Shown here: positions 2,067-52,091 of the stretch, one piece after another
Numbering within the stretch: the stretch's first letter is position 1
Layout of the letters: each line of letters opens with the position of its first letter
DNA from: DHVE2 group archaeon
GTDB lineage: Archaea; Thermoplasmatota; Thermoplasmata; Thermoplasmatales; Aciduliprofundaceae
Direction of reading: 5' to 3'
Assembly (NCBI GenBank): GCA_015523125.1
Contig: WAKX01000032.1
Span: forward strand, 1 to 64,000
DNA: 64,000 bases
Notes under the pieces: model-generated
The model's database searches: none
What the model saw: the letters and a program-made list of their open reading frames with translations, nothing else
What the model was told of the DNA's origin: nothing
Made by a program: the position numbers and the translations under genes

Positions 2067-2585
2067 ATGACCATTTACAAGTTCAAGGTGTGCGTCGTGG
2101 GAGATCAGATGGTGGGCAAGACATCCCTAATAAAAAGGTTCGTTTACAACATGTTTTCTGACAAGTATATGATGACCATCGGTACGAACATCTACAAAAA
2201 AACCGTGGCAATGAGCGGGCACACCGTTCATCTCATGCTCTGGGACGTGATGGGAAACGCAGGATTTAGAAATATACTCAAGACTGCCTATTTCTACGGG
2301 GCCAACGGTTTGTTCGTCGTGGGTGATTTAACGAGGCCAGACACGTTTGAATCCCTGCCGGACTGGGTATCGGCGGCCATAGAAGGCGCAGAAAAAGAAT
2401 TACCTTTGGCACTTTTGGCCAACAAGAGCGATTTAGAGTGGAAAATAACGGAAGATGACGTGGCTGACTGGTCCGCCGAGCTGTTCGCGAGAAATTATTA
2501 CATAACAAGCGCTAAAACCGGCGATAATGTGGAAAGGGCGTTCAGGGACATGGTCAGGATTCTTCTCCGCGAGGCACGGGAATGA
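2067..2585 (+). CDS. Rab/Arf-like small GTPase (first copy)
   Basis: A 172-residue single-domain Ras-superfamily GTPase. Visible G motifs: G1 GDQMVGKTS (residues ~11-19), a threonine in switch I (MMTIGTN), G3 WDVMGN where Ras has DTAGQ, G4 NKSD and G5 TSAKTG. The glutamine that normally follows the G3 glycine is replaced by asparagine, so intrinsic hydrolysis may be slow. There is no C-terminal cysteine, so no prenylation as in eukaryotes. The start has GGTGA 7 nt upstream. It overlaps the 3' end of pyrC convergently by 32 nt. It is a paralogue of the GTPase at 31664-32458. Confidence 0.85.
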   Translation: MTIYKFKVCVVGDQMVGKTSLIKRFVYNMFSDKYMMTIGTNIYKKTVAMSGHTVHLMLWDVMGNAGFRNILKTAYFYGANGLFVVGDLTRPDTFESLPDWVSAAIEGAEKELPLALLANKSDLEWKITEDDVADWSAELFARNYYITSAKTGDNVERAFRDMVRILLREARE

Positions 2586-22269: not shown

Positions 22270-23007
22270 TTATGCGGATATTTCTTCATTCAGCAGTTCC
22301 GCGTATTTTTCTTCCACTATCACATCAAGTTTGTCGAGATACATCTCTTCGAATTTCCTTTCTATTGTCACTCTGGTGAAGTTTGCTACTCGTGCCACCA
22401 TGTCAAAAATCTCCTTGTACATGGTATCATACGCTCTTTTCAATGTAACTCCAGGAGAGTTTAACATTTTGTCGCTATCAACTGTTACGTATGTGCCGAG
22501 GTCGTTCTCCTTTACTTCTCTCAAAGCTTCCATGGCCTTCTCTCTCCTGCTCGCCTCCAGAGAGAACGGCAGGACGAATATGGCCATCATTGGCTTTTCT
22601 CCCCTTTCTTTCAGTATTTTCATTGCTTCCAGCGCACCACCGGTTCCCATGCCGCCGCCCAAGGCCGCGATGATGATAACCGCGTCCGCGTCGTTTGTCT
22701 CTTCTAAAATCCAGGCTTTGGATCTATCTACGACATACCTTGCAACATTTACATAACCAGCTGTGTCCTTGTGGGTTCCCAAAACCTCCTTGCCGAGCCA
22801 CATCTTTTTGTCTACGGCAAGGCCCATCACGCGCTCGTCCACATTCACGGCTATGGTCTTCACCCCGGGAATCTTCCTTGCTGAGATGTACTCCGCGATT
22901 TTGCCCGCAGCTCCACCAAAGGCCAGCACCTTCACCTTCGGTGAGATTCCGAACTCTTCCTTCACCATTGCCCGTATTCTTTCCTTTATTTCATTCATAT
23001 TTTCCAT
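22270..23007 (-). CDS. FtsZ/tubulin-like GTPase-domain protein (short)
   Basis: About 245 residues that align with the GTPase half of FtsZ. The phosphate loop AALGGGMGTGGALEAM (tubulin signature with M for T) is at ~110-125; KVKVLAFGGAAGKIAEYI forms the first strand and loop, KTIAVNVDERVM the second, and FVLPFSLEASRREKAMEALREV the T5-T6 region. The usual C-terminal domain of ~100 residues is missing; only a charged helix remains. The ATG at 23007 is set by AAGGAGA 8 nt upstream. It follows the RHH regulator by 30 nt. It may be a division, shape or regulatory FtsZ relative; polymerisation is doubtful without the second domain. Confidence 0.82.
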   Translation of the reverse strand: MENMNEIKERIRAMVKEEFGISPKVKVLAFGGAAGKIAEYISARKIPGVKTIAVNVDERVMGLAVDKKMWLGKEVLGTHKDTAGYVNVARYVVDRSKAWILEETNDADAVIIIAALGGGMGTGGALEAMKILKERGEKPMMAIFVLPFSLEASRREKAMEALREVKENDLGTYVTVDSDKMLNSPGVTLKRAYDTMYKEIFDMVARVANFTRVTIERKFEEMYLDKLDVIVEEKYAELLNEEISA

Positions 23008-23037
23008 GGCTCCCATCTCCTTCTGGCATATTTATCA

Positions 23038-25378: not shown

Positions 25379-25991
25379 ATGAACAACCGAGCTATATTCA
25401 CCCTGGCCATACTGCTCTCCTTTGCAGCCGGCTTCATGTCCGCGGAGATGCTCATATCACCCACCGCGAGCCACGGGGGAAATATAATCGTTTCGAACAA
25501 TACAAAAATAATGGCTCTAAACGACAGGGATTATTATCCGGTCGCAATCGAAAAAATCAACGGCGCCAAGAAGAGCATACACATGGTGATGTACGAGATA
25601 AGGTGGTACGGAAATCCGGATAGCGATACGCACGATGTATCCAAGTTAGGAAAGGCTTTGGTGAATGCACACAAAAGAGGTGTGGACGTGAAGGTGATAA
25701 TGGACGACGGCAGAGGCTACGGATTCATAAATCCAGACTTAGTGAATGCGGCTAAAAATTGGTCCTCTTATTTCAAATCGAAAGGAGTGCAGGTGAAATT
25801 TGACTGGAGCAATCAGACGACGCATGACAAGCTTATAATTCATCGACGACGAGATAGTCATCGTAGGATCTACGAACTGGAGCCAGAGCGCCCTCAATTA
25901 CAATCACGAGGCAAATGCGCTGATAGAGAGTAAGGAAGTGGCCAAAGAGTACGAAGATTATTTTTCGTCTCTCTGGAACACTTATTCCTGA
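25379..25991 (+). pseudogene. Phospholipase D-like nuclease, frameshifted inside the HKD motif
   Basis: A secreted single-HKD nuclease of about 203 residues if restored. Signal helix NRAIFTLAILLSFAAGFMSA, then KIMALNDRDYYPVAIEKINGAKKSIHMVMYEIRWYG. The catalytic motif begins HDKLI, then one extra C near 25841 throws the frame and the ORF ends early at 25933. Removing that base gives HDKLIIIDDEIVIVGSTNWS followed by QSALNYNHEANAL and a natural stop at 25991, a perfect HxKx4D family motif. Either a young mutation or a sequencing error. The restored end overlaps the next gene by 10 nt. Confidence 0.8.
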
Positions 25992-26938: not shown

Positions 26939-26966
26939 ATTTATTTTGGCATGATTTTCCCTAAAT

Positions 26967-26997: not shown

Positions 26998-29900
26998 ATG
27001 AAAAAGTGGGCAGCACTTATCATAACCTTGCTTGTTCTGTCCTCCGCGGGATTTGCCATGTTCTCGCACCAGCAGAATATCGTAAAGAGAAATGTAACGC
27101 AAAAAGTATTCAAGCTAAACCTAAACGATTCTGAACTCGAAGTGAGAGCAAACGGATTGGACCCAAACGGTAGCTTTCCTTACAATCTGCAGGCTCTTCC
27201 GCTCTACGAAAACATGAAAATAAGTTCTGCATACGCAGGAGATGTTAATCATGATGGACGCCCCGATGTTGTAACTGTATCTTACAGACAGGAGAATATG
27301 AGCATCTACCTAAATCACGGAGGATTTGTAAATGTAACGCCGGATCTGATTCTTAACTCCTCAACAGGGCTTTATCATCCAACGGACGTGGTAATTGTGG
27401 ATGAGCAAATAGCGGTATCATGCCACAATGACAGCAGCACAACCCTGTCTGACTACGATAAAGTCCTGGTTTACAATCTAACTGATCCAACAAATCCCAT
27501 TGCCCTGAGTCCACCCGTCATATCGGGGGGAAATAACGTGCCCGTGATAATAAAATCGCTGGTAGTGGGTGATTTCGACGATGATTCTCAAAAAGATATT
27601 GCGGCTGCGTACAGCACAAATTCTTCATCCTTCGGACAGAATAGCAGAATTGCCATATACTCCTCTCCATTTACTAATGGAGAATCTCCGAAAACGATTT
27701 CGTTGGGCGCAAATATCACTCGTATGGCTGCGGGAGATTTCAACGGAGACGGCAAAGACGACTTGGCGGTTATACTTGACGGGGGAAAGAAGATAAATGT
27801 GTACTATCAGGGAACCAATGGATTACCCACACAACCCTCCATTGTATTAAACACGAATTCCTCCACAGATATTTTGGCGGCGCGCATAAATGCAGATAAT
27901 ATAAAGGATTTGGTTGTGTCAAATTTTGTCTCTGGAAACATATCTATATACTTCGGCAGTTCTTCAGGATTGGAAGCGAATCCTTCGCTGAATCTAAGTG
28001 CGGGGCCCGGGGTCATAGCAATTGGGGTGGGCAGATTCAATAAAGACCATGTTCCTGATATAATCGCATCTTACATAAACAAAGAGATCTACGGATATGT
28101 GGAATATCCTCGACCCATGGCCATATTCAACGGACCGCTCCATGATGGGCAAGAACCAAATAGAATGATATACGCGGGTTCCAATGTGATCAGATTGCAG
28201 GTGGCGGATTTCGATGCAAACGGAATGGACGATTTATTGGTGGGTGCCACAGGGGGCAAAGGAGATAGCCCGTCTCTTCCGTACATTCTGTATCAAAGGG
28301 ACAATTCGCTCAAAGGAATCGCGGATCAGGCGCTACACGGAGGGATATATCCCACAGGAATCACTTTGGGGGACGTAAACGGTGATAAAATCAAAGACCT
28401 AATCGTTGCGGAAACCGGTTCCAATTCTACCGCTGTGTTTCTAAACGATGGCCACGGGTTCCCGGTCACACCGAGCACAACCGTGCCCGTATATGGATAC
28501 CCGTATTACGTGGCCGCGGGACATTTAGATTCGGATAATAAAGAGGACTTTGCGGTGAGCCACATTTTGGACAACAATGTAACCCTCTACCTGAGCTCAG
28601 CCGGAGAATTATTGAATTTAACATCTTCCCTGAACAACACCGCCAGAATTTGGATAGGAGATATCAACGGCGACGGGAAGAACGACGTGGTTGTGAACTC
28701 TTATAAATCCTCTGGAATCGACATATTCTACGGAGACCACTTCACTGATGGAGAAGCGCCGAACTTAACTATTCCCCTAAGTTCGCCTGCTCAGGATTTC
28801 GCTGTGATTAATCTTTCATCTTCCAACTATCCCGGGATAGCTGTTGTTTTACCTGGAAAATTAGTGATATTCAACCAAACTTCGCCTGGAAACTTCCAGG
28901 TACAAAACACCATAAACGCCGATTCGGGAGTTTATCTTGTGTCATGCGCAGCGGGCGATTTTAACCATGATGGAGAGATGGATTTGGTGGTTACAGGGTT
29001 GGTAACAAACTACATTTCTTCCTACGCGGTTCTTTTACAAAATAATGGGAATTTTAATACTGCCCAGTATTCAGGCTACTTACCAGGAAAAGTTTTAGAT
29101 GTGAAAACTGGCGATTTCAACGACGACGGCATCACCGATTTTGCGGTTCCAAGTTCGCTGGGAATGACTCTCATCGGCTATTTCAATGGCACGGGGTTCA
29201 ATTTCGATTACCTTGCTTCTGATCAGAATCCAGTATCTCTAGCGGTAGGAGACATCAACGGCGATGGAAAAGACGATATTGCCACGAGTACCGATGGCCC
29301 CGATGTGGACAATTTCCCGATAGAGATGGGAATGATCGATGTGTATTTCCAAAAGGATACACCGCCCATAGCAAACATAACAGTACTCAATTATTCTTAT
29401 GAGGGATCACCCATAAAGCTCTCCGGTGAGAACTCTACTGACACCATATCCGACGCGGATTCTCTAAACTACACGTGGTACCTCTGGAACGAGTCCAGCG
29501 CAAGCTGGGATATAATCGGGTACGGGGTCAATATAACATACATACCCCCACAGCAGGGTACTTATAATTTCACCCTAAAGGTGACGGACAAAGAAGGCCT
29601 GTACGATTATGCAACCACCAACGTTACGGTTTTAGATACGAAGCCGCGGGTTAATTTCTCCTATTACAACGCTATCGAGGGGCAAAAAACGGAGTTCGTA
29701 GCGGATATTTACGCGTACGATGGAATTTACGCAATTTACTGGGACATGAACGGCGATGGGATATGGGACTTCACAAATGAATCGGAGGTGAATTACACCT
29801 ACGCCGAGAACGGCACATATTACGTGAATCTCACAGTTGTAGATGGAGATGGGAGCGTGGGCTATGTAAATAAAAGCGTGGTGATTAACGATACTTCCCC

Positions 29901-31662
29901 AACGTGCTCCTTCTCATATTACCCCACAACTATCTACGAGGGGCAAAACGTTACTTTCGTGAGCAACACCAACTCATATGATGAGGTAGTCAACTGGACA
30001 TGGAGATTTGGAAACAATTTGAGATACGGTAAAGATGTGAATTACACTTTTCCATCGCAGGGAAACTACATAGTTAATTTGACCGTGCGGGACTCGGACG
30101 GCTCATTGGGGTGGAGCGAGCAAACGGTAATCGTTCTGGATACTATGCCCGTAATCAATTTCACATACAACGGAACTTACGAGGGAACGCAGTTCCATTT
30201 TTATTCCCACGTGGATTCTTACGATAGCATATCGAGTTATTATTGGGATTTCGGCGATGGGCAAAGCTCAAAGGAAGAGAATCCCACCCATGTTTTCGCC
30301 CAACAGGGCTCTTATTTAGTCACACTATTCGTGAACGATTCCGACGGTTCCAACGTTAGCTATTCTCAACTCGTGGAGGTGGAAGACCAGAATCCATCCG
30401 TGTGCTTTAACTATTCAAACGCCGTGGAAGGAGAGCCCGTACAATTCACAGCGGATATCCATTCTTACGATGGCATTGTCTCGATTCTCTGGACCTTCGG
30501 AGACGGTGGCACATCCAATGAGACCAATCCAACGCACATATACGAGCAAAACGGGGCTTACAACGTTACAGTAGTAGTGAAAGAAGCGGATGGAGATTCG
30601 GCGGAATGCAGCAAGGATGTTTTTGTTGAAGATACCTCTCCGGTTATCTCTTTGAAGGTGGATGGATCTTCCAGCGTTATTGAAGATTCGATAATTCATC
30701 TAAACGCTACTGGCACGACAGCATACGATGGAATAAAAGAATACCTGTGGGACTTCAACTACTCCGGAAAATTCGCCTCTGACTTGGAGACAAAAACACC
30801 TCTGGCCACAACCAGTTACCCGGAGATGGGTCATTACGTCATTGCCCTCATGGTTATTGACGGAGATGGAAGTGCATCCATCGCGACAGTGAGTGTTATT
30901 GTGAATAATGTAAAACCGGTTGCAAATTTCACTTATGTGGTAAATCAGAACGAAGTGAGATTTGACGCTTCATCCACGTACGACACCCCCTCGGATAAAA
31001 ACATACTGAACTATACGTGGGACTTCGGAGATGGAACAACTGGATACGGAGAAATTGTAACTCACACATACTCAAAACCCGGAAATTACACAATAACATT
31101 AACTGTGGTGGATAACGATGGAGCTACGAGCCAAAAGACGATACATGTGAGAATAAGTTCAATTCCTTCTTCGCTTCCCTCATCCCGCGGAGGATTTTCG
31201 TGGCTTTTGTTGATCATAATACTCGCACTTATTGGAGCTCTCATAGGGTTATTGCTCGTTATGAACAAGAAGAAGTACACGGTGGACGATGTATACCTAA
31301 TAGCAGATTCGGGAGTTCTCATCCACCATGCAACCCGCAGATTGAAACCGGATATGGACGAGGATATACTATCAAGTATGCTGGTGGCAGTTCAGGAATT
31401 CATAAAAGATGCCTTTAAAGGTGAGGATAATGTGACCCTGAAGAGCATGGACTTCGGTGACAAGAAGATTCAGATTCACAAAGGTAAAAAGCTGTTTCTG
31501 GCAATGGTGAGCAGCAGTAATATCCCGAAGAAGCTGGAGAACAAAGCTCAGGAAATACTAGAAGAAATAGAGGAGAAGTACAAGGATATTCTAGACACAT
31601 GGGACGGCGATGTGTCGGCATTCAGAGGCGTCGGAGATATACTGAAGAAAATATGGGAGTGA
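26998..31662 (+). CDS. Giant surface protein: FG-GAP/VCBS repeats, seven PKD domains, membrane helix, longin-like cytoplasmic domain
   Basis: A 1554-residue protein. A signal peptide (MKKWAALIITLLVLSSAGFA) leads into about 13 FG-GAP/VCBS repeats (residues ~65-780) with calcium-type loops such as GDVNHDGRPDVV and GDFNGDGKDDLA, enough for two seven-bladed propellers. About seven PKD domains follow (~788-1390; WDFGDGQSS, WTFGDGGTS), then a membrane helix (~1400-1421), KKK, and a 125-residue cytoplasmic domain that recurs in the protein at 44489-45865. The domain order suggests an adhesin or receptor that signals inward. The start is 26998: the in-frame ATG at 26965 overlaps the TATA box. It ends 1 nt from the convergent GTPase gene. 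Confidence 0.85.
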   Translation: MKKWAALIITLLVLSSAGFAMFSHQQNIVKRNVTQKVFKLNLNDSELEVRANGLDPNGSFPYNLQALPLYENMKISSAYAGDVNHDGRPDVVTVSYRQENMSIYLNHGGFVNVTPDLILNSSTGLYHPTDVVIVDEQIAVSCHNDSSTTLSDYDKVLVYNLTDPTNPIALSPPVISGGNNVPVIIKSLVVGDFDDDSQKDIAAAYSTNSSSFGQNSRIAIYSSPFTNGESPKTISLGANITRMAAGDFNGDGKDDLAVILDGGKKINVYYQGTNGLPTQPSIVLNTNSSTDILAARINADNIKDLVVSNFVSGNISIYFGSSSGLEANPSLNLSAGPGVIAIGVGRFNKDHVPDIIASYINKEIYGYVEYPRPMAIFNGPLHDGQEPNRMIYAGSNVIRLQVADFDANGMDDLLVGATGGKGDSPSLPYILYQRDNSLKGIADQALHGGIYPTGITLGDVNGDKIKDLIVAETGSNSTAVFLNDGHGFPVTPSTTVPVYGYPYYVAAGHLDSDNKEDFAVSHILDNNVTLYLSSAGELLNLTSSLNNTARIWIGDINGDGKNDVVVNSYKSSGIDIFYGDHFTDGEAPNLTIPLSSPAQDFAVINLSSSNYPGIAVVLPGKLVIFNQTSPGNFQVQNTINADSGVYLVSCAAGDFNHDGEMDLVVTGLVTNYISSYAVLLQNNGNFNTAQYSGYLPGKVLDVKTGDFNDDGITDFAVPSSLGMTLIGYFNGTGFNFDYLASDQNPVSLAVGDINGDGKDDIATSTDGPDVDNFPIEMGMIDVYFQKDTPPIANITVLNYSYEGSPIKLSGENSTDTISDADSLNYTWYLWNESSASWDIIGYGVNITYIPPQQGTYNFTLKVTDKEGLYDYATTNVTVLDTKPRVNFSYYNAIEGQKTEFVADIYAYDGIYAIYWDMNGDGIWDFTNESEVNYTYAENGTYYVNLTVVDGDGSVGYVNKSVVINDTSPTCSFSYYPTTIYEGQNVTFVSNTNSYDEVVNWTWRFGNNLRYGKDVNYTFPSQGNYIVNLTVRDSDGSLGWSEQTVIVLDTMPVINFTYNGTYEGTQFHFYSHVDSYDSISSYYWDFGDGQSSKEENPTHVFAQQGSYLVTLFVNDSDGSNVSYSQLVEVEDQNPSVCFNYSNAVEGEPVQFTADIHSYDGIVSILWTFGDGGTSNETNPTHIYEQNGAYNVTVVVKEADGDSAECSKDVFVEDTSPVISLKVDGSSSVIEDSIIHLNATGTTAYDGIKEYLWDFNYSGKFASDLETKTPLATTSYPEMGHYVIALMVIDGDGSASIATVSVIVNNVKPVANFTYVVNQNEVRFDASSTYDTPSDKNILNYTWDFGDGTTGYGEIVTHTYSKPGNYTITLTVVDNDGATSQKTIHVRISSIPSSLPSSRGGFSWLLLIIILALIGALIGLLLVMNKKKYTVDDVYLIADSGVLIHHATRRLKPDMDEDILSSMLVAVQEFIKDAFKGEDNVTLKSMDFGDKKIQIHKGKKLFLAMVSSSNIPKKLENKAQEILEEIEEKYKDILDTWDGDVSAFRGVGDILKKIWE

Positions 31663-31663
31663 A

Positions 31664-32458
31664 TCATCTAACTTTTCTCAAAATTTCCAATCTCTTCATT
31701 TTTAGCTTTCTAGCTTCGTCTTCCCCTTTGAAGCTCTTCTCGACGCTCTCCAGAAGATCCACGAATTTTCTAACTTCTTCGTAATTTGGATTCTTGATAT
31801 CTAAATTAGCTTCCTCCGCCTGTCGCCGCACGATGGGCATTGCATCGTTCATATCTCCGTAATTCTTGGAGAAATCGTAGATTATGGAATCGAGGGCATC
31901 TTTAATGGTCTTTATTTCTTTCTCTAACCCTACATTTTCATTCTTATCCACCTTTTTTCTCAACACGTATCTCGCTATTTCAGTGAATGCTTGCTCCACA
32001 TTTTCCCCTGTTTTTGCACTGGTTAGATGATAAACTGTGTGATATTTCTCAGAAATAGTCCCAAGGTCATCCTCTGTAATTTCCCAATTGGGCAGGTCCC
32101 TCTTATTACCGAGGAAAACAATGGGTATACCGGGGGAAATTTTGTAAAGCTGAGGAATCCAGTAAGACTCTAAAGATTCTAATGTGCTTCTCCTAGTTAA
32201 ATCAGCAACCATGAGCGCACCATCGGTACCCTTGTACGACGCCCACTGCACCCTTTCGTACCCCTTTTGACCTAATATATCCCAAATCAAAAGCGTAATT
32301 TCGTAGTTTTCCAAAGTTATAGTTTTCTTCGAAACTCGCGTTCCTATGGTCGTGATATACTTTTCATCGAATTTGTTCATCACAAATCTTCTTATCAACG
32401 ATGTTTTACCAACGGCTCCATCTCCCAAAAGTACCACTTTTTTCTTCACAACGTGCAT
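31664..32458 (-). CDS. Rab/Arf-like small GTPase with C-terminal helical extension (second copy)
   Basis: 264 residues. The G domain (1-~170) is complete: GDGAVGKTS (G1), TTIGTR in switch I, WDILGQKGYE (G3 with the catalytic-type Gln), NKRD (G4), TSAKTG (G5). A ~90-residue extension, mostly alpha-helical and charged (NVGLEKEIKTIKDALDSI; VRKFVDLLESVEKSFKGEDE), is absent from the paralogue at 2067-2585. No lipidation cysteine. The stop lies next to the stop of the giant surface gene, whose cytoplasmic domain resembles longin-type GTPase partners; a functional link is inference. Confidence 0.87.
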   Translation of the reverse strand: MHVVKKKVVLLGDGAVGKTSLIRRFVMNKFDEKYITTIGTRVSKKTITLENYEITLLIWDILGQKGYERVQWASYKGTDGALMVADLTRRSTLESLESYWIPQLYKISPGIPIVFLGNKRDLPNWEITEDDLGTISEKYHTVYHLTSAKTGENVEQAFTEIARYVLRKKVDKNENVGLEKEIKTIKDALDSIIYDFSKNYGDMNDAMPIVRRQAEEANLDIKNPNYEEVRKFVDLLESVEKSFKGEDEARKLKMKRLEILRKVR

Positions 32459-44488: not shown

Positions 44489-45865
44489 TTACTCCCATAT
44501 CTTCCTCAACATATCGCGCACGCCGCGGAACTTCTCCACGTCGCCCTTCCAATTGGGGAGGATATCGGCGTATTTCTTTTCTATCTCCTCAAGCGTGGTT
44601 TTTAATCTATGCTCCACGAAGCTATCTAACTCTCCGCGCATCACCGCCGCGAGGATTAAGTATTTACCGCGATGCAGAAATATTTTCTTGTCTCCGAACT
44701 CTATTTTTTTCAATTCTATTTCCCCTTCATCCTTGAAAGATTCCCTCACGAATTCCTGAATTGCCACAAGCATCCCAGAGAGAACGTCCTCATCCACCTC
44801 CGGCTTTAATCTACGAGTTTCATGGCTTATCATTATGCCCGATTTTGAGAGGAGAAAAACGTCTTCCACCATGACAATTCCCTTCTTAACAGTGGGAATC
44901 TTGGAAGAATAGAGTTTGTGCGAAACCACGGCTATGGTGGCCACGTAAGCAACGCAAATTATCAAAAACATAAGTCCGGAGAGGTAAAATACGAAAAACG
45001 CCGCAAAGAGATACAGGATTACGAGCAGAATTTTTAGCACGAGATTCAGAGTTCCCACCTTCTTTCTCCGGCTAAATGTGGAGCCCTTATCCACATTCCT
45101 GTCGTAATTTCTTCTCTCCATGACATTGGCAACCCTCGCGGACACAAGAAGGATAATGAATAGAATAAGAGGACTATCCCAGAAAGAGAAGTCTACGGTC
45201 TTTATATTTTCATCATTTGGCACGGATCCTGAGTAATAATAAAAAGAGCCAAATACTAGGCGAAGAACCAGCGCGCCCTCCGTTTTCTCGTAGGAGGAAA
45301 ATGTTAAACCAATCTCGGTGTGCTCCCTCTGAACGAACTCCTTTGGAATGGTGTAATTCTCCAAAGTGGTGTTCAAGGCCGCTACGATAGGCACCTTCGA
45401 GAGATTCAAACTGTTAAGATTTCCATCGCTCACGGGATTTGCGGAAAATCTTAACTTTATAACGAAAGAAGAGGAGGAATTAAGCGAGCCTAGAAGCCCT
45501 TTTATGTCCCCTTCGTCCATGCTTTCCCCGCCGGAGTACCAGTCGTGCAATGGCTTCACGTCCCCTGCATTTTTCACCATAACCGTTCCTATTTTCTGAC
45601 CCACGAGCAATTTTGCGATATTTTTCACGTAATCAACGGCTTCGTTCATCTCCAAGTTTCCATCATGATTGAAATCGTAGTGAGATTTTAAGGCATCTCG
45701 AACGCTCTTCGCCTGCTCTCCGGAGAAATTCCAGTAAATTCTACCCCCATAGTAATTTTCCCAAATTTCCACATATTCAACGTAAGTTGTGGTTTTAACG
45801 CTCCCAAAAGCGCTCCCGGCGAGTAGAAGAAACACCAGCAGGGGAATTAAGAAGCGCATGTGCAT
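44489..45865 (-). CDS. Membrane protein with EF-hand-like ectodomain and longin-like cytoplasmic domain
   Basis: 458 residues. A signal peptide (FLIPLLVFLLLAGSAFG) is followed by an ectodomain of ~200 residues containing an EF-hand loop DFNHDGNLEMNE. Three or so membrane helices lie at ~230-320 (PLILFIILLVSARV; LVLKILLVILYLFAAFFVFYL; MFLIICVAYVATIAV). The C-terminal ~125 residues (EDVFLLSKSGIMISHETRRLKP ... GDVEKFRGVRDMLRKIWE) are about half identical to the end of the giant surface protein. An ATTATAAATA box 26 nt upstream of the ATG predicts leaderless expression. Function unknown; likely signalling. Confidence 0.72.
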   Translation of the reverse strand: MHMRFLIPLLVFLLLAGSAFGSVKTTTYVEYVEIWENYYGGRIYWNFSGEQAKSVRDALKSHYDFNHDGNLEMNEAVDYVKNIAKLLVGQKIGTVMVKNAGDVKPLHDWYSGGESMDEGDIKGLLGSLNSSSSFVIKLRFSANPVSDGNLNSLNLSKVPIVAALNTTLENYTIPKEFVQREHTEIGLTFSSYEKTEGALVLRLVFGSFYYYSGSVPNDENIKTVDFSFWDSPLILFIILLVSARVANVMERRNYDRNVDKGSTFSRRKKVGTLNLVLKILLVILYLFAAFFVFYLSGLMFLIICVAYVATIAVVSHKLYSSKIPTVKKGIVMVEDVFLLSKSGIMISHETRRLKPEVDEDVLSGMLVAIQEFVRESFKDEGEIELKKIEFGDKKIFLHRGKYLILAAVMRGELDSFVEHRLKTTLEEIEKKYADILPNWKGDVEKFRGVRDMLRKIWE

Positions 45866-48166: not shown

Positions 48167-48301
48167 AACTCCCAAAGTGTAATCGCTATAACGGTATAAA
48201 TATGTTTTTGTTATGCCTAAAATCCTTATTTTCCGCATATCCAATGAAACGCAATTTTTTTATAGATTTTTCTCAATCCCCCTCACCAAGAGGTGTATCA
48301 C

Positions 48302-49951
48302 ATGGGGGATATCGAAACTGTGGTAAAAAAATATCTTGGCGACGAAGAGATAATTTTCGATGGCAATGTGGATGTTAGCGGCATAAAGGTTGCAAAGGGA
48401 AAGGCCAATGCGGCTCTTTTCGTTAACGAATTCGACGAGATGAAGTTAGGGCTACTGGATGAAGGTGGGAAGGTCATAATAGTGGTGCCAAACCGAGACT
48501 GGTATATCATGCATCCATCCGGCAAGGACTGGGAGCAAAAGGATAAGAAGTACGTGCTCAAAGAATGGCATTTCGATGCAGAAAATGGGAAGGTTATCGA
48601 AAAAATAATAATCCCAGGAATATCGGAGAAGGAAGAGACCCTCAAGGCTTATTCTCCGGAGGAGATAAAAACAAAGCTTCAAAAGCTAAATTTCAATGTT
48701 CTCGCACTCTTCTCAGATGTTAAATCTGAAAAATACACTCCCGATTTCCCTGTAATATACGTTTACGCTCAGAAACTCGCCGAGGAAGTTGAGGAGATAC
48801 CTCAGGAGGAAGTGGTTCTCGAAGACATAACCCCCGAGGGAATCTCAGAGGAGGAGATTGAAGAAGAACCAGAACCGGTAAAAGAGAGAGAAATTCCCAA
48901 AAAAGCAGCAATAGCCACCGGAGCCGCGGCAGCGGTGGGTGCAAGCGAGGCGGTAAGCAAATCCACGAAGAAGAAAAGGATGAGGGAGGAAGACGAAGAG
49001 ATTATGATTCCTAAGGGAAGGGCAAGGATATCAGCCCGCGGCGAAGTGCCTGGAATATATGGACTTCGATTGAGGTGGATTGATAGCAACAAGAAGGAGC
49101 ACGAAATAGAGGTGGATAAGGATATCATAATCGGAAGGGGGCGCGGTGATGTAATCACCATGTTCAACAAGATGGGAAAGAAAAAGTACAATCCCATGAT
49201 GGTTTTCGACTACGACAAAAAGATATCAAGAAAGCATATTTCCATATACACCAAGGACGGAAAATGGTACATAATGGACCTGGGAAGCACAAATGGCACT
49301 GCTCTGAACGGCAACATGCTCCCAGGCTGGAAGAAGCCTTCAGGAGGGAATAGGTATCCGAGCGAGGAAGTTCAGTTGAGGGACGGAGATATAATCACCC
49401 TCGCGAATACGATAACCATCACGGCAAACGTTTACCTCAAGCAGAAGTTTGAAACTGCCGAAACCGAAGAAGTGTTTGGCGAGATGGGAGAAGATGAATA
49501 TCAACCAGAGGTTGAAGAAGAGGAGTACGAGGAAGAAGAGCCAAAGGAAGAGGTGGTGGAAGAGCCTCCCGCACCGGAAATACCTGCGAAAACCTGCATG
49601 CTGAAGTGGGTAGACGGAAATCTCAGACCTCATGAAGTGGAAATCAGCGACGATGTGTACATAGGAAAGAGAAAGGACAACAACGTGGTGTTCCTGAAGA
49701 CCTTGGACGGAAAGGTAACAATACCTCTGGGAATAATCGACTTAGAAGATGAGATCTCGGAGAAGCATGTGGAGATTCACCGCGAAGGAGATAGATGGTT
49801 CATAAAAGATTTGGGGAGCGAGAAAGGCACAATTGTGCGCGGCGATTACCTGCCTGGGTGGAAGAGAGGAAAAGAGAGCGAATATATGGAACTCCATGAC
49901 GATGATGAGATATTAATTGGGAAATATTTGATCACCGTCAGAATTCAGTGA
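48302..49951 (+). CDS. Protein with two FHA domains
   Basis: 549 residues. An N-terminal domain of ~160 residues (MGDIETVVKKYLGDEEIIFDGN) is of unknown type. An acidic linker and an Ala-rich patch follow, then FHA domain 1 (~255-370: IIIGRGRG, ISRKHISIYTK, IMDLGSTNGTALNG) and, after another very acidic linker, FHA domain 2 (~450-545: VYIGKRKDNN, ISEKHVEIHRE, IKDLGSEKGTIVRG). FHA domains bind phosphothreonine peptides. First gene of the FHA-kinase-phosphatase operon. GAGGTG is 6 nt before the ATG at 48302, so that start is used rather than 48293. Confidence 0.9.
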   Translation: MGDIETVVKKYLGDEEIIFDGNVDVSGIKVAKGKANAALFVNEFDEMKLGLLDEGGKVIIVVPNRDWYIMHPSGKDWEQKDKKYVLKEWHFDAENGKVIEKIIIPGISEKEETLKAYSPEEIKTKLQKLNFNVLALFSDVKSEKYTPDFPVIYVYAQKLAEEVEEIPQEEVVLEDITPEGISEEEIEEEPEPVKEREIPKKAAIATGAAAAVGASEAVSKSTKKKRMREEDEEIMIPKGRARISARGEVPGIYGLRLRWIDSNKKEHEIEVDKDIIIGRGRGDVITMFNKMGKKKYNPMMVFDYDKKISRKHISIYTKDGKWYIMDLGSTNGTALNGNMLPGWKKPSGGNRYPSEEVQLRDGDIITLANTITITANVYLKQKFETAETEEVFGEMGEDEYQPEVEEEEYEEEEPKEEVVEEPPAPEIPAKTCMLKWVDGNLRPHEVEISDDVYIGKRKDNNVVFLKTLDGKVTIPLGIIDLEDEISEKHVEIHREGDRWFIKDLGSEKGTIVRGDYLPGWKRGKESEYMELHDDDEILIGKYLITVRIQ

Positions 49952-49956
49952 TCTGC

Positions 49957-51360
49957 ATGTTGGAACTGAGAAGGAAGATAGCCACAACCAAGATGAGTGA
50001 GGTTTGGGAAGGATACTACAGAGGGAAGAGAGTAGCGGTGAAAAAACCAGTTACCGAGGAGATGCTCAAGCTCATCCGTTTTGTAAAGGAGGCAAAGTAC
50101 TGGAAGGAGATAAGCGATCTGAACATCGACGGAGTACCGGAAGTTGTGGCAATCGACGAAAACGAGCCATGGTTCGCAGTGGAATACATAGAGGGGGAAA
50201 CACTGGACAAAAACCTCAAAAACGCGGACATACGGGAGATCATGCACAGAATGCTGGAAGTGCTCAGAATACTGGGAATTGTGCATCAGAAAGGCTATCT
50301 CCATCTTGATCTTAAGCCAAGCAATATTTTAGTTGATAAATACGGAGACATCGCATTTTTGGACTGGGGTCTGCCTGTGAGAATATTCAGAAAATTAAAG
50401 GATGAAAAATACACGTTCATTGGTACTCCTTCATACGCACCCCCTGAATTATGGGATCCGGACAAATATGGAATACCAGATGAGAGAAGTGATGTTTACG
50501 AAGTGGGTACAACTTTTTACAGGGTAATAGCAAAGCAGGTACCATTCCACAGGAAAAGCGAGGTGCTGAATGGAGACATAAATCCATTTCCAAAAAACGT
50601 GCCGGAATATGTCAGAAAAATAATATTGAAGGCAATCAATCCCAAAAAGGAGCTGAGATACCAGAGCACCGAGGAGATGTACAAAGATGTGCAGTACTGG
50701 CTCCAGAGGAATAACGTGCTATGGAGGGGAATGTACAAGATAAAATTCAAGAAGGTTCTCCAAGTAAATTCATCTCATGGCATAAATTTTATAGCTGACC
50801 CACCCGATATGAGAAAAAGCAAGATAAACCGCGTTCCATTTGGATTTATAACGGAGGCCGGGAAGGAGAAGAACATGGTCCTAAGAATCGAGGGGAAAAA
50901 AATAAAGGCGTACAAGGATGGTGTTTTTATAAAACACGGGATAAAGAAGAAAGTGCACATAAACACCACGGCCACCGTTTATCAGGGAACTACCATCTTC
51001 TACAAGAAGGAAGAAATTGGGAGGCTGGATTTTGGATACAGAAACGTTGTGTATATTGATTTCATATCGCTGAGCGAGGAGGTCGGCAGAAAATACTTCG
51101 AGTTCCTTAACTTTTTAAAAGAGAAAAACATAAAATTCAAAATGAAGAGAGGAAAGGATAAGTTGAATCTCATAGCCCATAAAGTGCTGATAAAGGGGGA
51201 AGTGCCGGATGACATGCTGGACGCCGTGGTGAAAATAGACAGCAGAAGGCTCCATTTCCGGCTCGTGAAGGAAGCTCCCTTGGATTCGGATATTCAAATT
51301 TACGATGCGTCCGGAACTAGTATGAGTATATTAAAAGACGCTTTGAGGTGTGAAATATGA
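49957..51360 (+). CDS. Eukaryotic-like Ser/Thr protein kinase
   Basis: 467 residues. The kinase domain (1-~255) has VAVKK with the ATP-binding lysine, FAVEYIEGETL at the hinge, the catalytic loop HLDLKPSNIL, FLDWG for DFG, and the activation segment GTPSYAPPELWDP. The glycine-rich loop is degenerate (KIATTKMSEVWEG). A ~210-residue C-terminal region of beta-rich character is not recognised. The ATG at 49957 has GTGATC 4 nt upstream; a GTG at 49948 overlapping the FHA stop is the alternative. Expected to phosphorylate partners that the FHA protein reads and the PP2C reverses. Confidence 0.88.
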   Translation: MLELRRKIATTKMSEVWEGYYRGKRVAVKKPVTEEMLKLIRFVKEAKYWKEISDLNIDGVPEVVAIDENEPWFAVEYIEGETLDKNLKNADIREIMHRMLEVLRILGIVHQKGYLHLDLKPSNILVDKYGDIAFLDWGLPVRIFRKLKDEKYTFIGTPSYAPPELWDPDKYGIPDERSDVYEVGTTFYRVIAKQVPFHRKSEVLNGDINPFPKNVPEYVRKIILKAINPKKELRYQSTEEMYKDVQYWLQRNNVLWRGMYKIKFKKVLQVNSSHGINFIADPPDMRKSKINRVPFGFITEAGKEKNMVLRIEGKKIKAYKDGVFIKHGIKKKVHINTTATVYQGTTIFYKKEEIGRLDFGYRNVVYIDFISLSEEVGRKYFEFLNFLKEKNIKFKMKRGKDKLNLIAHKVLIKGEVPDDMLDAVVKIDSRRLHFRLVKEAPLDSDIQIYDASGTSMSILKDALRCEI

Positions 51361-52091
51361 GAATAAGAACGTACGGCATTAGTGATGTTGGCCAGAGAAG
51401 GAGAAACAACGAAGACGCCTACCTCATAAACCGCATAGAAGTATTCAAAGACGGAGAAAAGAGGGTATTTTACGTTTTAGCCGTGGCCGACGGCATGGGT
51501 GGGCATGAGGCAGGGGAGGTCGCAAGCGGCATGGCGGTTGATAGATTGACAGCAGCCCCGCTTACCTATTTGGCGGGGGACGTGGAAGGAATAAGAAAAA
51601 TAATCGAGTTCGTGAACAAGAAAGTACACGAGAGGTCTCAAAAGATGGGTAAAAAGATGGGAACCACTCTGGTGGCAGCTCTGATAGAGGATAACAAAGG
51701 CTACATATTCAATGTTGGAGATAGCCGCGCTTATCTGTTTCGCAATGGGAAATTGAGGCAACTCACAAAGGACCATTCCGTTGTTCAAGAACTTTTAGAT
51801 AAGGGACTCATAACCAAGGAAGAGGCTAAAACCCATCCAGATAGGCACGTGATAACCATGGCAATCGGTACCAAAGATCAGGTTCACCCCGATACTTACT
51901 CCATTTACTTTGACAAGGGCGACATTCTTTTGCTTTGTTCCGACGGTGTCACGGACATGGTGAGCGACGAAGAGTTAGAAGAGATACTGACAAATAACAC
52001 TAGGCTGAGTACAATAGGTGGGGAAATAGTAAAAAGAGCAAATGCCAACGGAGGAAAGGATAACATAACCGTAGTGCTAGCAGCATTCTAA
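51357..52091 (+). CDS. PP2C-family Ser/Thr protein phosphatase
   Basis: A 244-residue metal-dependent phosphatase: QRRRNNEDAYL at the N-terminus, metal-binding VADGMGGHEAGEVASG, MGTTLVAALIED, FNVGDSRAYLFRNGKLRQLTKDHS, LLLCSDGVTDMVSDEEL and the final GGKDNITVVLAA with the second metal aspartate. All acidic metal ligands are present. The ATG overlaps the kinase stop (ATGA). Soluble, single domain; the third gene of the operon. Confidence 0.95.
   Translation: MRIRTYGISDVGQRRRNNEDAYLINRIEVFKDGEKRVFYVLAVADGMGGHEAGEVASGMAVDRLTAAPLTYLAGDVEGIRKIIEFVNKKVHERSQKMGKKMGTTLVAALIEDNKGYIFNVGDSRAYLFRNGKLRQLTKDHSVVQELLDKGLITKEEAKTHPDRHVITMAIGTKDQVHPDTYSIYFDKGDILLLCSDGVTDMVSDEELEEILTNNTRLSTIGGEIVKRANANGGKDNITVVLAAF

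Follow-up and report, generated by a model that had tools for sequence, protein, structure and literature searches.

Does a giant envelope protein, whose gene ends against that of a small GTPase, carry on its cytoplasmic side a platform for this GTPase, and does their neighborhood mean anything? The question is raised by a locus in the window (the whole stretch of 64,000 nucleotides analyzed), on contig C32 of a 1.54-Mb genome, where the original prediction had placed a PKD/FG-GAP surface protein and a GTPase gene end to end. The open reading frames and Pfam bear this arrangement out, including stop codons separated by 1 nt (TGA of the receptor at 31660-31662; TCA, the reverse TGA of the GTPase, at 31664-31666). 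The features of the pair are the following (TM, transmembrane; AF2, AlphaFold2).

26998..31662, plus strand: giant surface protein with signal peptide, FG-GAP region, PKD repeats, one TM helix and predicted cytoplasmic longin (ORF, Pfam, TM scan)
27220..29367, plus strand: FG-GAP repeat region of beta-propeller type, limits approximate (Pfam FG-GAP_3, 11 stretches; FG-GAP, 8 stretches)
29407..31152, plus strand: PKD (Ig-like) repeats, aa ~804-1385 (Pfam PKD_4 and PKD, 7 stretches each)
31204..31260, plus strand: predicted TM helix, followed by KKK on the cytoplasmic side (hydropathy scan, translation)
31282..31659, plus strand: predicted cytoplasmic longin, beta-beta-alpha-beta-beta-beta-alpha-alpha (AF2, Foldseek, family alignments A2 and A4)
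31664..32458, minus strand: Rab-like GTPase, 264 aa, convergent with the receptor (Pfam, AF2 pLDDT 88.6, Foldseek, nearest solved sequence)
31676..31906, minus strand: four-helix C-terminal tail of the GTPase, aa 185-261 (AF2 helices 185-200, 203-216, 226-244 and 246-261; conserved motif)

The receptor ORF encodes 1,554 aa, or 1,565 aa when read from an upstream in-frame ATG at 26965, and its Pfam matches include PKD_4 (E=7e-77) and FG-GAP_3 (E=1e-37). Hydropathy reveals an N-terminal hydrophobic signal and a single hydrophobic segment (aa ~1403-1421) abutting a C-terminal domain of ~125 aa, and since this segment is followed by KKK, the domain is predicted to be cytoplasmic, as had been claimed. 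Read from its translation, the protein thus shows an FG-GAP/PKD ectodomain, predicted to be secreted, that is joined via one TM helix to a cytoplasmic domain.

Pfam, NCBIfam or PDB sequence searches alone did not identify this C-terminal domain. An AF2 model built on 18 homologues (pLDDT 82.5, pTM 0.77) places strands at 8-15 and 20-25, a helix at 34-52, strands at 62-65, 68-74 and 78-84, and helices at 90-106, 108-113 and 124-132, that is, a five-stranded sheet in the order beta-beta-alpha-beta-beta-beta-alpha-alpha with an extra C-terminal helix and no N-terminal one. It is by precisely this order, lacking the N-terminal helix and having an added C-terminal helix, that longins are told from roadblock domains (PMC10933270), and the longin-type succession of elements that had been proposed from the letters alone is thereby reproduced in the model. 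The Foldseek comparison, fixed beforehand as the check for a longin or roadblock fold, returned 28 PDB matches at E<=1e-3, of which the named ones are of longin/roadblock fold (AP-1/AP-2 mu and sigma, TRAPP, Mon1-Ccz1, Ragulator); the highest TM-score among the matches listed belongs to the Sec22b longin (0.73/0.76, rmsd 2.6 A), and AP2 sigma follows with 0.66/0.62. A roadblock/LC7 fold was rejected, given the missing N-terminal helix and a TM-score of only ~0.44 for MglB (~0.41-0.47) versus 0.73 for Sec22b. When 75 diverse family members were compared with Pfam, 12 families were matched, but only Robl_LC7 (6 of the 75, best 4.5e-5) and Fuz_longin_1 (5 of the 75, best 0.0012) by more than one member, and one member of the family, G011:C108, passed the Robl_LC7 cut-off in the same segment (24.1 bits); these matches lend the longin fold weak but selective sequence support, independent of AF2. 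Longin membership rests on the predicted fold because no curated longin model was passed, the best, Fuz_longin_1 at E 0.0012, staying below its cut-off. In a fold as strongly divergent as this one, sequence matches are customary but do not define membership, and we conclude that, by prediction, the receptor ends in a longin.

The neighboring gene had been announced as a complete Rab/Arf-like GTPase with a helical tail, and of this description all stands except the Arf likeness. Ras is its best Pfam family (E=1.4e-38; 132 bits for Ras versus 40 for Arf), the translation displays the G1-G5 motifs along with the catalytic Gln (GDGAVGKTS, WDILGQ, NKRD, TSAK), and AF2 (pLDDT 88.6) gives a Ras fold at residues 2-167 followed by the four-helix tail. 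The Foldseek top matches are mostly Rabs, and the solved protein closest in sequence is a Thorarchaeota Rab (E 3e-44), whose alignment leaves the tail outside; with a Ras fold, all five motifs and closest kinship to Rabs the protein is Rab-like, and an Arf-like assignment was rejected on the same figures. We write Rab-like rather than Rab because the C-terminus (...MKRLEILRKVR) has no prenylation cysteine motif and forms a helical tail instead. The tail motif DxIIxDFC...GD..AMPI.R.Q...AGVDI..P is a conserved feature of the family (37 homologues), kept in those of 39-71% identity and weaker in one at 30%. A further Rab-like GTPase of 172 aa, without a helical tail, is encoded elsewhere in the window (2067-2585, plus strand).

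Whether the two genes belong together was asked of their relatives, and a conserved GTPase neighborhood did emerge. Neither of the outcomes named in advance as refuting the proposal, an unrelated fold or the lack of such a neighborhood, was thus observed. Within the receptor clade, seven of the eight sequenced receptor orthologues (the window included) adjoin a convergent GTPase gene; the pair occurs in six DHVE2 contigs, in two of which (L015, L016) the gene beyond the GTPase differs. The linkage is not universal, since the receptors of L013, a clade member, and of the outlying L018 are followed by other genes and have no GTPase neighbor. A close orthologue of the window GTPase is absent from both genomes, the best matches reaching 49% and 46% (L013 being a partial MAG) versus 63-71%, and L013 has lost its GTPase neighbor.

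At a wider scale, in a sample of 21 genomes (one per family), a tailed GTPase is found no more than 1.5 kb from at least 12 longin loci versus 0.66 expected (P 8e-12, at least 9 genomes), and untailed GTPases lie near at least 6 versus 1.07 expected. A Ras-like GTPase gene is found within 500 nt (gene ends) of 21 of the 59 longins preceded by a TM segment (TM-longins) versus 5 of the 68 other longins, a neighbor that by our hand estimate (188 GTPases in ~41.5 Mb) would arise by chance for ~1% of genes; the remaining 38 TM-longins have no adjacent GTPase. Linked TM-longin and GTPase genes are codirectional or convergent, never divergent. The smallest complete systems are operon pairs whose receptors have ~200 aa (L165, L169). 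Mapped on a 135-longin tree, the linked members are scattered, requiring 16 changes of which at least 9 are forced by well-supported branches; therefore, the link has been gained or kept in many lineages. The presence of the two families agrees in 146 of 150 genomes (94 with both, 52 with neither), as raw counts uncorrected for shared ancestry. Taken as statistics, these figures tie the longin family, and its TM-anchored members most of all, to Ras-like GTPase genes in the genomes of many families of Thermoplasmatota, the genes standing in operons or tail-to-tail.

The window receptor is one member of a large Thermoplasmatota longin family linked to Rab-like GTPases and V4R proteins. Of the 150 genomes sampled from the class, 95 carry the domain, with up to 26 copies each; it also occurs in further classes of the phylum, and a search through 84,980 bacterial and archaeal genomes with exact peptide seeds, which distant kin would escape, found it only in Thermoplasmatota and 'Euryarchaeota' MAGs. 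Its architectures are diverse: in the 21 genomes, 59 proteins carry a TM segment directly before a C-terminal longin, the ectodomains examined, and again those of the GTPase-linked receptors, being built of PKD, Ig, DUF11 and FG-GAP repeats; in 33 large proteins the longin stands near the N-terminus and, in the case examined, lies within the AAA_16 ATPase of a TPR-STAND protein; others are soluble proteins with two copies. Soil Euryarchaeota MAGs (L030-L036) encode Roadblock/LC7-longin fusions of ~280 aa (Pfam-tested in L031). No natural longin-GTPase fusion, sought as a stand-in for co-folding, occurs among 157 longin frames. This family of TM receptors, STAND-TPR inserts and roadblock fusions has apparently gone unnamed so far. 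Two close relatives in the same taxonomic family, with single-contig, near-complete genomes (G013, G059), do not have the longin family, through either lineage-specific loss or absence, and one of them also has no strong GTPase match.

The genome itself holds three copies of the domain, in the receptor, in a second protein of the window and in a third protein elsewhere. The second is the following.

44489..45865, minus strand: second longin membrane protein, 458 aa, several TM segments (C-terminal longin at 44492-44878, or 44492-44902 as the domain copy; 51% identical)

Its longin is the sister clade of the receptor longins, and no GTPase gene lies beside it. Two of the three longin proteins are nevertheless tail-to-tail with two of the three tailed GTPases, the other case being a 1,011-aa STAND-type AAA_16/TPR protein on contig C17 (L067:9542-12577, minus strand), in which the longin sits between Walker A and Walker B and which overlaps by 18 nt a second tailed Rab-like GTPase (L067:8735-9559). 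Many related genomes encode similar proteins of ~1,000 aa. On contig C29 (L068:6970-8339, minus strand), the third tailed GTPase overlaps a gene for V4R (PF02830, E 1.5e-14), a TRAPPC3-related domain (PMC10933270); an untailed GTPase-like gene of 157 aa stands divergent beside it.

Because the longin/Rab-like gene pairing recurs across so many related archaea, it probably represents a cell-surface-to-GTPase signaling system outside the Asgard archaea. As for the window receptor, we consider it rather likely to be a transmembrane receptor-regulator for a dedicated Rab-like GTPase, and we infer binding, GEF/GAP sense and ligand. The longin would serve as a membrane-anchored platform that loads or recruits the GTPase depending on the state of the ectodomain: as a homodimer, or with another longin or roadblock subunit, it would bind the switch face of the GTPase on the inner side of the membrane, by analogy with TRAPP, Mon1-Ccz1 and MglB; receptor clustering, or binding of ligand or matrix outside, would alter the platform and so load, discharge or recruit the GTPase at the membrane; and the helical tail of the GTPase, which has no prenyl-type C-terminal Cys, or the receptor itself, might provide localization or effector contact. 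A GEF or platform role is tentatively preferred to that of a GAP: among the closest Foldseek matches known to act with GTPases, several (TRAPP, Mon1-Ccz1, Ragulator) serve as exchange factors or platforms. Against the receptor-regulator reading count the missing longin-GTPase fusions, the 38 TM-longins with no adjacent GTPase, the lost neighbor in L013 and the fact that some longins (SNAREs, adaptor coats) act without GTPases.

The main rival reverses the direction of control, the longin being an effector or anchor which the GTP-loaded GTPase binds in order to cluster, sort or tether the surface protein from the inside, while the GTPase is switched by other regulators, e.g., V4R or roadblock proteins. 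Such regulators are indeed at hand: in the 21 genomes, V4R genes lie near untailed GTPases at least 11 times versus 0.43 expected and near tailed ones at least 4 times versus 0.31, the overlap with the third tailed GTPase being an example from the genome itself, and 17 of 58 V4R loci, in 16 genomes, have a roadblock neighbor versus 0.33 expected. V4R-roadblock pairs, of which this genome has one (C5:23630-24014), perhaps form a separate regulator module. With regard to a TRAPP-type complex of longin and Bet3/TRAPPC3-type subunits, genes for longins, V4R and Rab-like GTPases are found together and each two of these kinds are linked, although longin and V4R are neighbors in only 3 cases. That many surface proteins of one genome share the longin would also suit an anchor. 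Nevertheless, where the nearest structural relatives have a role with GTPases (TRAPP, Mon1-Ccz1, MglB, Ragulator), it is that of a regulator or platform, and simple two-gene units of longin and GTPase are frequent, so that we regard this rival as unlikely, though worth keeping in view.

Less probable still is a longin that only dimerizes the receptor or binds other longin, roadblock or V4R proteins, its GTPase link being an indirect one within the same pathway. Longins without GTPase roles are known among SNAREs and adaptor subunits (PMC10933270), most longin loci have no adjacent GTPase, and the soil homologues carry a roadblock fused to the longin; against this stand the repeated two-gene linkage in at least 9-14 of the 21 family-level genomes and the near-identical phyletic patterns of longin and GTPase. 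Finally, mere chance, for which it may be said that compact archaeal genomes commonly have convergent genes separated by 1 nt, is scarcely credible and was rejected, the pair being kept in 7 of 8 orthologues despite changed flanks, with at least 12 loci linked versus 0.66 expected and 21 of 59 TM-longins versus ~1%.

We tentatively envisage in Thermoplasmatota, outside Asgards, a large receptor-coupled Rab-type signaling network. In it, a single longin family would give surface proteins and STAND ATPases, up to dozens per genome, a platform that can be switched and that serves their cognate Rab-like GTPases; V4R (TRAPPC3-like) and roadblock proteins would add further regulation. If true, this would amount to transmembrane-receptor control of Ras-superfamily switches in an archaeon, made of the building blocks also found in eukaryotic TRAPP and Ragulator.

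In eukaryotes, membrane identity depends at its core on longin/roadblock platforms for Ras-like GTPases, whose origins among archaea have been looked for chiefly in Asgards. The eukaryotic longin Rab-GEF platforms Mon1-Ccz1 and TRAPP (Bet5/Trs23) share with the receptor the longin fold and the link to a Rab-like GTPase, and TRAPP also the GTPase-linked V4R proteins of Thermoplasmatota genomes; however, they are subunits of soluble cytosolic complexes, whereas the longin described here forms the cytoplasmic end of a surface protein, and no direct sequence orthology between them is detectable. Bacterial MglA-MglB, a Ras-like GTPase with its roadblock GAP/GEF, is likewise a prokaryotic two-gene unit of a GTPase and a longin/roadblock-fold regulator, but the pair described here differs by its longin topology (MglB TM ~0.44), its TM receptor plan and its tailed Rab-like GTPase. 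Archaeal PKD/FG-GAP surface proteins have the same ectodomain plan, here continued by a longin after the TM helix; in them a cytoplasmic signaling domain is usually not recognized. The Streptomyces conservons (Cvn: membrane kinase, roadblock, Ras-like GTPase) also couple a membrane sensor genetically to a roadblock-fold protein and a Ras-like GTPase, yet there a histidine kinase does the sensing and the roadblock is a subunit of its own (PMC4316618), whereas here the longin lies within the receptor.

In Asgard archaea, longins, some of them fused to GTPases (PMC4917890, PMC10933270), occur together with V4R proteins, roadblocks and Rab-like GTPases (PMC10933270), and the Thorarchaeota Rab nearest to our GTPase comes from this group; unlike that set, proteins of the window type are TM receptors and lie outside Asgards. 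The Asgard (MK-D1) GTPases reportedly do not, as a rule, stand in operons with such regulators, and gene order is said to help little in pairing them (PMC10933270), whereas the Thermoplasmatota ones do, and their gene order yields cognate pairs directly, of small proteins suited to biochemistry, with the longin tied to a surface receptor. The role of longins before vesicle traffic thus becomes testable, the answer suggested being that the state of the envelope is relayed to GTPase switches. Single Rab-like GTPases have been noted in a Thermoplasmatales archaeon and in Aciduliprofundum sp. (PMC4915359), and in the open-access full texts searched, no report of Thermoplasmatota longins or of TM receptors ending in a longin was found. 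The original prediction that a receptor of this plan would be new for Thermoplasmatota holds in the sense that no description was found there, but not as to rarity, the domain being widespread (95 of 150 genomes of the class). Platforms of longin and GTPase as such were known before, and the receptor architecture with its linkage adds an apparently new variant of them.

Other genes of the window merit brief mention. A Phospholipase-D-like gene (25379-25985, plus strand) has an apparent frameshift near 25836, its second half lying in another frame, which is either real decay or an assembly error. A protein of 248 aa (22270-23016, minus strand; E 1.9e-14) belongs to the FtsZ/tubulin family, the FtsZ-like protein on contig C17 being longer (374 aa). 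Furthermore, three overlapping genes at 48293-52091 (plus strand) encode an FHA-domain protein, a Ser/Thr kinase and a PP2C phosphatase, which together make up a compact, eukaryote-like phosphorylation cassette.
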